A DNA stretch of 49,029 bases from Actinomycetota bacterium (lineage in GTDB: Bacteria > Actinomycetota > Actinomycetes > Mycobacteriales > Pseudonocardiaceae). The stretch covers positions 1 to 49,029 of the forward strand of contig JAJPIR010000176.1 in assembly GCA_021324675.1 (NCBI GenBank), read 5' to 3'. This document shows, one piece after another, positions 38,411 to 49,029 of this stretch. How positions within the stretch are numbered: position 1 is the first letter of the stretch; every line of letters begins with the position of its first letter. Below the pieces are notes generated by a model. It was not told the DNA's origin and made no database searches. It was given only the letters and a program-made list of their open reading frames with translations. The position numbers and the translations under genes are program-made.

Positions 38411-38454
38411 TGGAGCGGGCGACGGGAATCGAACCCGCATAGCCTGCTTGGATG
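38411..38454 (-). repeat. tRNA-Gly 3'-half, attachment-site copy 2
   Basis: Same structure as copy 1, with encoded CCA; the anticodon loop reads CATCCAA on the minus strand. Arm repeats GACCGTGATTGACCG and CTAATGGCAC follow (38519-38559). With copy 1 it brackets the segment containing the sigma factor, DUF5994 and the integrase remnant. Confidence 0.85.
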
Positions 38455-39963: not shown

Positions 39964-40007
39964 TGGAGCGGGCGACGGGAATCGAACCCGCATAGCCAGC
40001 TTGGGAG
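39964..40007 (-). repeat. tRNA-Gly 3'-half, attachment-site copy 3 (CCC anticodon)
   Basis: The minus-strand loop reads CTCCCAA, so the embedded anticodon is CCC and not TCC as in copies 1, 4, 5 and 6. The T-arm and acceptor strand are identical to copy 1. CCA is encoded. Arm-like TTGACCGTCG and GATAGCACGCC follow at 40069-40110. Confidence 0.82.
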
Positions 40008-40816: not shown

Positions 40817-40860
40817 TGGAGCAGATGCGGGAGTCGAACCCGCATAGCCAGTTTGGAAGA
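40817..40860 (-). repeat. tRNA-Gly 3'-half variant, attachment-site copy 4
   Basis: The minus strand gives a UCC anticodon loop (TTCCAAA), the T-loop GGGTTCGACTCCC and acceptor CATCTGC followed by TCCA, so the acceptor stem differs from copies 1-3. Its right flank TCGGGCATGGATCATGG continues for 120 bases in near-identity with the sequence after the IS110 element (47501-47625). This is the uninterrupted version of the IS110 target site. Confidence 0.85.
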
Positions 40861-40985
40861 TCGGGCATGGATCATGGTCCTGACCAGTAAAATATTGGCC
40901 TGCGGGTACCCGGCGGTAGATGACAGGATTGACCGTGATTGACCGTTGGTGACCCTGAGAACGGGCACGCGGGGGCACGCCGGGC
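40861..40985. repeat. Direct repeat, att-arm region (partner at 47501-47625)
   Basis: Aligned by eye, 40861-40985 and 47501-47625 share TCATGGTCCTGACCAG, GACCGTGATTGACCG and GGTGACCCTG, with scattered substitutions. It contains three TGACC units spaced about 10-11 bp, as expected for integrase arm sites. It follows att copies 4 and 5. Confidence 0.75.
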
Positions 40986-44926: not shown

Positions 44927-44954
44927 AGTCTTCCAAGCTGGCTATGCGGGTTCG
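44927..44954 (+). repeat. Inverted fragment of the tRNA-Gly attachment site
   Basis: Twenty-eight bases, including CTTCCAAGCTGGCTATGCGG followed by GTTCG, match the att core in the opposite orientation to all other copies. It abuts the start of the PIG-L remnant. It may be an inverted attachment-site scar that cut that gene's 5' end. Confidence 0.65.
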
Positions 44955-44983: not shown

Positions 44984-45622
44984 TCATCCGGCTGGCGGAG
45001 CTCAAGAATGCCTGTAGGTGTCTCAAGGTCTGTGACCTTGAAGTGCTCGGCTACCACGACTCTGGCATGGCTGACTGGGGCTACCAACATCAATCCATGG
45101 TCTGTTGCAATGTTGCTGCCCCGGTCGTGGCCGCGCGTATCGGCGCCCTGTTCGAGCGTTACCGGCCCGCAGGTGATCATTACCCACAACGCGAACGACA
45201 AACTGCAGCATCCTGATCACGTCCATGCTGGCTAGGCGACCGCCTTGGCTGTCGAGATGACCGATATCCCCGCAAAGCTCTACTTCAAGGCGCACGGCAT
45301 CAGCCACTGGAATCGCATTTGCGAAGCACTAGCTCAGGTGGGAATTGCGCGTGCCGCTCCGGATTCGCACCAGTGGCAACAGTGGGAGTGGGTGGAACGT
45401 CAAATTACTACAACGATTGATGTAAAAGACGTCGTTGATCGGAAACGGGAAGCTCTATTGGCCCATAGCAGCCAGCTCAACAGCTCCTTGGCCGCCAGGA
45501 TCCCTGCCGAGCTATGGCCCTTAGTCTTCAGTGCAGAAACCTTCATACGCACGCACGACACCACGCACGCGCCGACGCCGGAAGATGACCTGTTCACTGG
45601 GCTGCGGCCTGACGGGTCATGA
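44984..45622 (+). pseudogene. PIG-L (LmbE-like) deacetylase remnant, two frameshifts
   Basis: Three pieces in different frames follow the order of a PIG-L family deacetylase: LEVLGYHDSGMADWGYQHQS with GRIGALFERYRP-like end (as VAARIGALFERYRP), then QVIITHNANDKLQHPDHVHA with the zinc-binding HPDH motif, then from 45245 MTDIPAKLYFKAHGISHW and TFIRTHDTTHAPTPEDDLF. The N-terminal AHPDDE-type motif is missing, cut near the inverted att fragment. Intact relatives act on N-acetylglucosaminyl compounds, including mycothiol precursors and conjugates. It is inactive here. Confidence 0.75.
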
Positions 45623-45680
45623 ACTACTGCCTGAGGATTGATCGCACCGTGATGGTGACAAGGCCTAGATCAGGCACTCT

Positions 45681-45723
45681 GGCACGGGCGACGGAAAACC
45701 ATCCGCATGGCCAGTTTGGAAGA
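45681..45723 (-). repeat. tRNA-Gly attachment-site copy 5, interrupted by IS110
   Basis: The left part is degraded (GGGCGACGGAAAACCATCC), but the anticodon half GCATGGCCAGTTTGGAAGA matches copy 4. The repeat stops at 45723 and resumes at 47500/47501 with TCGGGCAGGATCATGG, so the IS110 element lies exactly between. Confidence 0.8.
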
Positions 45724-45743
45724 CATCCCACGCGCTTAGCTTG

Positions 45744-46985
45744 TCAAGCTGCCGCGCTGGTTGAGTTGGAGCGGGTAGGGGGGAAGGCGATTTGTTCGTT
45801 GTAGTGCTGTCGGGTTTGCAGGCAGTGGTGTAGGCAGCCGAGGAGTCGGTTGAACAGGTGGCGTTGGGCGGCGGTGTGGCGGTCGCGGGTGGTTTTGCGG
45901 TGGTCGTAGTGGGTTCGGGCGCCGGGTGAGGCGGTCAGGGCGGAGAAGGCCCAGACGTAGCCGGCGGCGGCCAGGCGTTGGTTTTTGACTTTGCGGTGGG
46001 TCACGGTGAGGCTTTTGCCGCTGGCCCGGGTGACGGGTGCGGCACCGGCGTAGGCCTTCAGCGCCCTGGCGTTGGTGAAGCGGGATCGGTCGTCGCCGAT
46101 CTCGGCCAGTACCCGGGCGCCGGTGAGAGGTCCCAGTCCGGGCAGGCTGGTGATGATCTCGGCGTCGGGGTGGGTGTTGAAGTGCTCGATGGTGGCGGTG
46201 GCGAGGTCTTCGGCGTTGGTGGCGGCGGTGTCGAGAGCGCGCAGCAGGGCGAGGGCTTGGCGGCCGAAGGCGTCTTCGACTAGGGGCAGCTGGTAGAGGT
46301 ATTCGGTGCGCAGGATCGCTTGGATCCGTGCGGCTTCGGTGTTGATGCCGCGGTGGCGTCCGGCGCGGCCAGCAGGACCGTGAGCTGAGTGATGCTTAGT
46401 GTGGCGGCTGCGCGGGGGGTGGGGGCGGCGGCGAGCAGGGCCCGCGCCTCGGGGCGCAGCAGGCCGCCGGGTTTGGTGGTGAAGGCTGCCAGCAGGGCGG
46501 GGTAGTACTCGCGCAGCAGCGAGCGCAGCTTGTTGTGCGCGCAGGTGCGTTCCCACACGGCGTCTTGCTGGGCGCGGGCCAACACGGCGATGGCTTGGGC
46601 GAGTTCGGACTCGGCGGGCAGCAGTCGGTGGGGCGGCGATGTCGGTGCGCAGGATATTGGCTAGTACGAACGCGTCACCGGCGTCGGATTTCTTGCGCGC
46701 CACCGAATACCGATCCCGGTAGCGCGACACCGCCACCGGGTTGATCGCATAGACATCGCGTCCGGTGGCCCGCAGGCAGGCCACCAGCAGCCCGCTGCCG
46801 GTTTCGATGGCCACCGGGAGGGGATCCTCGGCGCTGTCGCCGGCGTCGGCCAGCAGCGTGATCAAGGCGGCGAAACCGGCCGCGTCGTCACTGATGCGTC
46901 GCTTGGCGATCAGTGTTCCCTCGCTGTCGACCAGGGCGACGTCATGGTGGGCTTCGGCCCAATCGATCCCACAAAACACCCTCAC
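45744..46985 (-). pseudogene. IS110-family DEDD transposase with two compensating frameshifts
   Basis: From GTG 46985 (GAGGAGG ten bases upstream) the protein starts VRVFCGIDWAEAHHDVALVD. The DEDD residues are Asp in GIDWAE, Glu in VAIETGSG, and two Asp in KKSDAGDAFVLANI. The C-terminal domain has TSLPGLGPLTGARVLAEIGD and PVTRASGKSLTV with the conserved Ser. An extra C in a CCCC run (plus 46629-46632) shifts the frame after LRTDIAA, and a missing base near 46361-46367 restores it before RHRGINTEAARIQ. Between them about 90 residues are out of frame; the true middle (HNKLRSLLREYYPALLAAF, TPRAAATLSITQLTVLLA) is readable in the other frame. The frame looks full-length but should not encode a working enzyme. 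Confidence 0.85.
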
Positions 46986-47055
46986 GATCGCGTTCCTCCT
47001 CATCGATCGTCGAGATCTGATACCCACGTCCAAGCCGGGTCCGGGACACGCGCGC

Positions 47056-47450
47056 TCCCTAATGGCAGGGCTCTGCGGCCCGACATCCCACCAGCGGTTC
47101 GTGGCCCCAGCACACCGCCAGGGCCCTCGGTCTACCGGCGGAGCTGTCCCGCTCCCCCTCATGATCAGAGATGATCCCTGCCAGCGGCTCGAACCACGAC
47201 ATGATCAGCATCCGGTCACGGCTGATCACGACGACACGCCCGGCGGCACCGACTAACTCAGTGCCACCCCCCTTGTGGCCCATGCCTGACGAACACCACG
47301 GCATCGGGCCGTGTCAGTCTCCTCGAAGGACTCGATGGACACGTCGTAGGAAAGACATCGGCCCGATACCCCACCACCGCTGTGAGCAACCCGAGATTCC
47401 CGGAAAGCGCCGGTCTTCCAAAAGCACTCCCAGGTGCTAATCGGGCAAAG
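47056..47450 (-). ncRNA. Candidate bridge RNA region of the IS110 element
   Basis: On the transposase strand two guide loops are visible. Target loop (47450-47412): UGCCCGAU, hairpin AGCAC-CUGGGA-GUGCU, then UUUGGAAGA. The first arm is identical to the left half of the target; the second is complementary to the right half with the CT core. Donor loop (47092-47059): GUGGGAUGUC, hairpin GGGC-CGCAGA-GCCC, then CCAUUAG. The first arm is identical to the right end of the element, the second complementary to its left end CTAATGG. This is the arrangement of the IS621-type bridge RNA. The spacing of the loops, about 320 nt, is much longer than in IS621. Promoter and ends are not defined. Confidence 0.65.
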
Positions 47451-47500
47451 GCGTCCCACCCGGAAAACCCATGTCTTCACAGCCTTACATGCCCATTAGA

Positions 47501-47625
47501 TCGGGCAGGATCATGGTCCTGACCAGCGAAATGTTGACCTGCGGATATCCAGTAGCAGAGGGCAGAAGTGACCGTGATTGACCGCTGGTGACCCTGGCTA
47601 CGGGTACGTGGGGGGCACGCGAGGC
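47501..47625. repeat. Direct repeat, att-arm region (partner at 40861-40985)
   Basis: Continuation of att copy 5 after the IS110 insertion. TGACCGTGATTGACCG and TGGTGACCCTGG carry three arm-like units (47568-47595), followed by ACGTGGGGGGCACGCG. Confidence 0.75.
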
Positions 47626-47679
47626 CCAGAGCGGTTGCGTGCGGGGTGTTGGCTTGCTGCAGGATGGCGGCCGGGTGTG

Positions 47680-47817
47680 GGTATCCCGTCGCGTCGGCGA
47701 GCTTGCTTCGAAGCGGGCCGGGGGCTAGTGGGCCAGGTGGAGCACCGCTCGCGATGAACGACCTGGCCCACTAGTTCCCGGTCTGCTATGCCTCTGGCGG
47801 CGACGCGACGGGATACC
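47680..47817. repeat. Nested palindrome, 17-bp outer and 14-bp inner arms
   Basis: Outer arms GGTATCCCGTCGCGTCG (47680-47696) and the exact reverse complement (47801-47817); inner arms CTAGTGGGCCAGGT (47725-47738) and exact reverse complement (47761-47774) around a 22-base loop. The sequence between inner and outer arms is also partly complementary, so the whole could fold into one long hairpin. Incomplete relatives occur near 38595-38670 and 34778. Confidence 0.85.

Positions 47818-48985: not shown

Positions 48986-49029
<44 letters not shown>

Follow-up and report, generated by a model that had tools for sequence, protein, structure and literature searches.

A predicted bridge RNA in IS110-group elements that combines multiple target-binding loops with a single donor-binding loop

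The current picture of bridge RNAs is of one target loop and one donor loop, and the locus studied here raises the question of what occupies the DNA between the two when they lie far apart. The window, which is the whole 49,029-nt stretch of actinobacterial DNA that was analysed, carries an IS110-group element. The original prediction placed two guide loops about 320 nt apart upstream of the transposase of this element and considered that the RNA may be a long or bipartite variant of the IS621 type. The distance is as predicted (324 nt from the end of the right guide of the first target loop to the start of the donor loop). The interpretation was not borne out, since the gap holds additional target-binding-loop (TBL) modules, an array that had been missed, and we dropped a long linker or bipartite RNA as an explanation because the gap is filled with these modules.

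The element is 1777 bp long and runs on the minus strand from 47499 (CTAATGG...) to 45723 (...TGGGATGT, then CT). Its ends were set by comparing the interrupted att repeat with an uninterrupted one (empty site at 40852-40867). In the blind end scan of the window the CT core emerged without being imposed; it was imposed when the ends of relatives were searched for. The element and its site comprise the following features.

45723..47499, minus strand: IS110-group element (sequence, empty-site comparison, end scan, shuffles).
47499-47498 (inside the element) and 45722-45721 (outside), minus strand: CT core at both junctions.
47500..47507, minus strand: left target half, TGCCCGAT (sequence and empty-site comparison).
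45714..45722, minus strand: right target half including the core, CTTCCAAAC, in a tRNA-like repeat (sequence and repeat comparison).
40852..40867, minus strand: intact target copy, the sole exact one in this genome (genome search).
45744..46985, minus strand: transposase frame (DEDD_Tnp_IS110 and Transposase_20 matches at its two ends).
46280..46585, minus strand: middle of the transposase in a different frame (coding disturbed or sequencing error).

The uninterrupted target, TGCCCGATCTTCCAAA, occurs once in exact form in the window's genome (40867-40852) and the two runner-up sites have 2 mismatches each. The site had been predicted to derive from a tRNA-Gly gene. This holds for the right half only, which matches the tRNA-like repeats. 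From its anticodon loop we take the repeat to belong to tRNA-Gly, and ARAGORN found no tRNA-Gly gene in the window. Repeats resembling a tRNA 3' half lie at 38412-38454, 39965-40007, 40817-40859, 44930-44954, 45703-45723, and 48987-49029. The last of these ends on the final base of the contig, which was therefore probably broken at a repeat. A large inverted repeat was also seen at 47712-47787; its 37-nt arms agree at 78%, and a second pair of arms encloses it at 47680-47699/47798-47817.

The recombinase matched PF01548 (DEDD RuvC-like; 5.3e-25) and PF02371 (Tnp; 1.7e-16), which are the domains of the IS110 group, and the only PDB sequences that it matched were those of ISCro4 and IS621. Because the middle of the transposase sits in another frame, either this copy may be inactive or the assembly may be in error. 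The non-coding DNA of the element consists of 514 nt upstream of the transposase gene and 21 nt downstream, and its guide loops are upstream, which sets it apart from the IS1111 group with its RNA downstream of the gene. An Rfam search of 45600-47700 gave three matches at E <= 1, none of them to a bridge-RNA family. The best was to Ms_AS-4, an actinobacterial sRNA, at 46065-46146 on the plus strand opposite the transposase (48.9 bits with a cut-off of 50).

With the ends fixed, the donor loop agreed with the element's ends at 16/16 positions and the target loop with the insertion site at 16/17, so the predicted guide loops upstream of the transposase are real. The guide arms do match the element's own site and ends as claimed, except that the right target guide (RTG) pairs with the right half plus core at 8/9 positions and is not perfect. 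The short hairpin between each guide pair folds as described, with apical stems of 5 bp and 4 bp. The upstream region contains three TBL-like modules and one donor loop, with these features.

47391..47471, minus strand: TBL1 module with outer stem, guides and apical hairpin (covariance model, fold).
47440..47447, minus strand: left target guide (LTG) of TBL1, TGCCCGAT (end scan, shuffles).
47439-47424, minus strand: apical hairpin of TBL1, between LTG and RTG.
47415..47423, minus strand: RTG of TBL1, TTTTGGAAG (end scan, shuffles).
47296..47375, minus strand: TBL2 module (covariance model 28.4 bits, E 0.13 in 428 kb; outside the training set).
47132..47166, minus strand: proximal TBL-like module, TBL3 (synteny with the proximal module of relatives).
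47059..47091, minus strand: donor-binding loop, with LDG GTGGGATGTC at 47091-47082 and RDG CCATTAG at 47065-47059.

In dinucleotide shuffles of the window's non-coding region with fixed ends, 0/5000 reached 16 for either loop (maxima 14 and 15). In the blind scan over all possible ends the window's solution ranked first with 32/33. None of 500 shuffles reached 32 and the margin is small because 3 of them reached 31. TBL1 gave 28.4 bits (E 0.14) with a covariance model in whose training set it was included, and as a whole it folds slightly better than shuffles (z -1.34); the stretch with the donor loop folds worse than shuffles (z +1.02).

The guides of TBL2 are placed by inference at about 47353-47346 (TTTCCTAC) and 47326-47319 (TCGAGGAG). 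This module has a strong outer stem and a weak apical hairpin, with a fold z of -3.24 and 17 bits by profile HMM. The proximal module has guides at about 47166-47159 (GATCATGA) and 47139-47132 (GCCGGTAG), a good GGAGC/GCTCC hairpin, and a fold z of -2.26 for 47100-47215; it was not among the profile matches above 5 bits in the window. TBL1 alone is tied to a site. The predicted target of TBL2 had no exact match in the window's genome (the best had 2 mismatches), and neither had that of TBL3 (two sites with 1 mismatch). Sites at up to 3 mismatches numbered 54 for the forward pattern of TBL2 vs 25 for the reversed pattern, and 121 vs 59 for TBL3. Both modules are putative target loops.

Relatives were sought in a scan with an alignment of related sequences that gave at least 472 encoding places, of which the best 80 were taken, mostly from Streptomyces; further genomes added more. 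To be accepted, the ends of an element had to agree with its donor loop and be of the CTAAT or CTCAT type at the start and of the TGTCT type at the finish. This yielded 97 acceptable elements from 161 loci tried, and 96 without L067, which has an N in its flank. Once redundant elements, alike in array and inserted at one and the same target, had been removed, 78 were left, a set that still includes several members of one array type. Ten loci had been excluded earlier for want of a start motif (6 and 4 in two rounds). The second end search lost six elements with acceptable donor loops, including the distant single-loop type. Their target scores were 14 for L009 and L016 and 11-13 for L092, L010, L026, and L027.

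Some TBL matched the element's own flanks at 14/17 or better in 53 of the 78 elements, and in 52 of 78 when ends were picked by the donor loop alone (3 ties broken at random). With swapped flanks only 2.0% of 6006 pairs reached this level. The remaining 25 elements had no TBL at 14/17 or above. Agreement between donor loop and element ends averaged 14.3/15 for own and 11.2 for swapped ends, a difference that the choice of ends aided. At one locus beside a helicase-like gene, L060 and L159 have left target halves CGTTAACC and CGTCCACC and guides that differ likewise. Thus, copies at other targets carry correspondingly matching loops, which had been set as a test beforehand, and this agreement across relatives supports the predicted IS621-like logic. 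Five related elements (L201, L204, L206, L211, and L213) at five different sites had TC|CTTTC in common around the core and no loop above 12/17 to their flanks; we regard them as a relaxed-target branch.

It could be argued that such matches arise by chance in GC-rich DNA. The background of the blind search is indeed high (28-31/33 in 500 shuffles), and in that search many relatives did not exceed the scores of their own shuffles. The counter-evidence comes from the blind and fixed-end shuffles, none of which reached the window's score, and from the swapped flanks. At those levels chance is excluded for the window as well as for the complete set of elements, and we give this explanation almost no credence.

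The distance from the used TBL to the donor loop was 179-217 nt in 24 elements, 250-323 nt in 21, 357-414 nt in 7, and 521 nt in 1. A covariance model (R1) was built from 38 used loops and a profile HMM from the same alignment, with a threshold of at least 10 bits. R1 detected second to fourth loops in upstream regions, mostly outside its training set, at intervals of about 90-120 nt. The number of loops was four in L056, three each in L103, L106, L077, and L105, and two in the window. By profile HMM, at least two distal modules (two to four) were present in 42 of the 78 elements, one in 25, and none in 11, and five shuffled sets gave 0 matches. In 65 of the 78 the donor loop is immediately preceded on its 5' side by a proximal module that has a GAGC/GCTC hairpin. 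This module sits near the position of the used loop in the distant relatives L009 and L016, which have one R1 match each. Judged by loop-donor distances, the proximal module was used in 0 of the 53 matched elements. We filed the system as a variant, and not as IS621-type, because of these 42 elements with two to four distal modules and of three sets of elements, described next, that used two.

Elements with near-identical arrays at different sites bear most directly on the use of these modules. A single genome contains both L103 and L106, copies whose arrays differ by 1 mismatch in 623; the flank scores of TBL1 and TBL3 were 16 and 9 for L106 and 7 and 15 for L103. L144 and L145, from one other genome, have arrays identical over 622, and two loops of the shared array scored 14 and 9 for L144 and 11 and 15 for L145. 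L161 and L185 come from different genomes with arrays identical at 593/612, and two loops scored 15 and 9 for L161 and 8 and 16 for L185. In each of the three sets the guides of both loops are unchanged between the two copies. Our main result, as read from these guide-flank matches, is that different TBLs of near-identical arrays are used at different targets. The three sets are not fully independent because the arrays of L103/L106 and L144/L145 are related (87% in the shared part).

Several observations on individual arrays were made alongside. The guides of the middle TBL of L106 (L106:2050-2135) can pair together, and this loop may be closed or have a palindromic target. Elements of the 337-nt type (L007, L070, L104, L199, and L200) have inserted at sites that resemble one another (CTTGAAAC|CTGTGGAT or a variant of it), and in L007 and L070 the proximal module also matches the element's own site at 13/17, as if loops had been duplicated.

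These arrays weigh on two further explanations. The RNA could be a one-target bridge RNA with a long spacer, in which the extra modules are dead duplicates and one is active at a time. The disuse of the proximal module, the weak TBL2 hairpin of the window, and the elements with one distal module or none at threshold fit this idea; the three sets, in which two modules each were used with the guides of both unchanged, argue against it, and we judge it improbable. Alternatively, guides could be copied from the flanks after insertion and not direct it, as a sequence match by itself gives no direction. The identical arrays of L144 and L145 each hold guides for both sites, and IS621 guides were shown to direct insertion in the experiments consulted in PMC11208160. 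Copying is therefore very unlikely.

We consider it highly probable that these elements encode a bridge RNA system with several TBLs and one donor loop, by which one element enters several unrelated sites with its guides unchanged. The upstream non-coding region would encode the TBLs together with a single donor-binding loop that is predicted to pair with the element's own joined ends. Any distal TBL could pair with a CT-core site, at which the DEDD recombinase would join the ends by analogy with IS621. Entry into unrelated sites without a change of guides would then follow from the interchangeable distal TBLs. The window copy would have entered the tRNA-like att repeat by TBL1. In the relatives, mostly from Streptomyces, there appears to be a division of labour, with one TBL class probably directed to a -10-like box just before the start codons of conserved genes and other TBLs often to genes of other mobile elements. 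A sub-form of this multi-loop system, in which the TBLs are transcribed singly or processed into separate RNAs that work in trans with the donor loop, would suit modules that are self-contained stem-loops of about 80 nt, and the assays consulted in PMC11208158 show that separate IS621 TBL and DBL molecules work in vitro; we hold this sub-form tentatively, at somewhat less than even chances.

The evidence for a division of labour came from clustering the 53 used loops by scaffold with the guides omitted; the number of clusters (4) was our choice. A TAGNNT motif, resembling a -10 box and read toward the neighbouring gene, occurred at 13/18 sites of cluster 2 and at 1/35 of the others (p 1.3e-7). 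Within a group of cluster 2 picked by eye the motif was present in 13/14, and an ATG or GTG lay 6-9 nt past the box at 11 of these 14 sites, also by eye. No -35 box was found by eye at the outward element end. For the flanking genes we used at least one ORF piece for each of the 52 non-window elements and further pieces for some, chosen as first or second by GC3 (the second was substituted in L076, L089, L099, and L165). Open frames across the joined flanks were also tried and dropped as uninformative in GC-rich DNA.

Transposase-type Pfam matches were found in the flanks of 16/34 elements outside cluster 2, a count that is somewhat biased because pieces of L099, L147, and L185 were picked after transposase-like translations had been seen, and of 1/18 inside it (p 0.002). 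Restricted to matches above the Pfam cut-off, the counts were 13 outside vs 1 inside (p 0.02). Two pairs within these counts share a target (L161/L218 and L034/L043), and L165, at the same TnpB site as L185, is uncounted because its own pieces gave no match. Flank matches in cluster 2 were to ArsA (2), ADP-ribosylglycohydrolase (2), TetR, transglycosylase, RNase PH, YaaA, DEAD helicase, CoxG, ANTAR, and one Mutator transposase (L007), with none in six elements. Outside cluster 2, L050, L048, L100, L177, and L202 lie in or beside ordinary genes. Together, these data suggest a trend toward a split between TBL classes, with promoter boxes on one side and transposase genes on the other, among cases that are not all independent because scaffold class follows lineage.

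Two targets were followed into other genomes. An uninterrupted copy of the promoter target of L106 was present in 62 of 295 genomes of the genus, exactly one per genome; the genome of L106 itself has none, and the reversed pattern gave 0 matches in the 295. At each of the 12 sites fetched, the GTG of an ArsA-like gene follows after 10 nt. L106 and L068 have differing TBL1 guides and both lie just before an ArsA-like gene. Intact copies of the target of L185 numbered five in the genome that carries this element, and a single further copy was seen in 1 other of the 295. All six intact frames are TnpB by eye, and pieces of the gene interrupted by L185 match OrfB_IS605 and Cas12f1-like_TNB.

A further-reaching reading is that a natural multiplexed bridge RNA gives a one-gene transposon a double life like that of Tn7, in which one loop homes to a -10 box, others hunt genes of mobile elements, and modules duplicate and are retargeted. 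We put the chances of this reading at about even. The promoter targeted would be conserved, single-copy, and leaderless, and the element's CTAAT end would rebuild the TAG half of the -10 box. The mobile targets, putatively TnpB, IS110, and DDE transposases and att repeats, could carry the element to new hosts, and new loops would arise by duplication and retargeting of a module of about 100 nt. A natural array of target loops that share one donor loop would mean that target guides are modules interchangeable in evolution. Such an array could account for IS110 elements found at more than one kind of site, and bridge editing of several targets could take its design directly from it. The promoter/transposon split would be an answer, at the level of guides, to the conflict between harmless residence and spread.

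Among the PMC papers listed for bridge RNA, IS110, seekRNA, and target-binding loops, none was seen to describe an element with more than one target loop, and terms for a second or multiple target were absent from the texts of PMC11208160 and PMC11187229; an earlier description may exist elsewhere. As far as the consulted parts of PMC11208160 and PMC11208158 describe it, IS621 shares with these elements a DEDD/Tnp recombinase, an RNA upstream of the gene, a CT core, a target loop 5' of the donor loop, and two guides per loop on opposite strands. The whole IS621 RNA measures about 177 nt and has a single target loop, whereas here up to four distal target loops and a proximal one accompany one donor loop, and the used loop is separated from the donor loop by 179-521 nt. 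According to the same parts of PMC11208158, two RNA molecules supply the target and the donor loop of one IS621 complex, and the recombination reaction can be run in vitro with TBL and DBL as separate molecules. Because of this, a variable spacing is mechanistically allowed, and no chemistry beyond that of IS621 has to be assumed for an array that has one donor loop. The seekRNA of IS1111/IS110 elements is likewise a non-coding RNA that picks the target, and in the sections of PMC11187229 consulted every element or group is tied to a particular site, with one target per element as the rule, whereas here one array would serve several targets; those sections leave open the case of elements at many places without a clear consensus.

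Likenesses can also be drawn to elements outside these studies. The 1777-bp element of the window has space for little beyond its recombinase and non-coding region. Tn7-like transposons have two targeting routes, one to a conserved chromosomal site and one to mobile elements. A pairing of this kind is suggested by the targets of L106 and L185 and by the trend among TBL classes, both seen in relatives of the window's element. Unlike those transposons, an element of 1777 bp has no room for Tns proteins, and both routes would be guides of one RNA system. IS900 of Mycobacterium avium subsp. paratuberculosis, which we take to be an IS110 member, reportedly targets gene-start signals, as Doran is said to have described in 1997. 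The signals targeted by IS900 would be those of translation, whereas here one TBL class appears to be directed to -10-like boxes.
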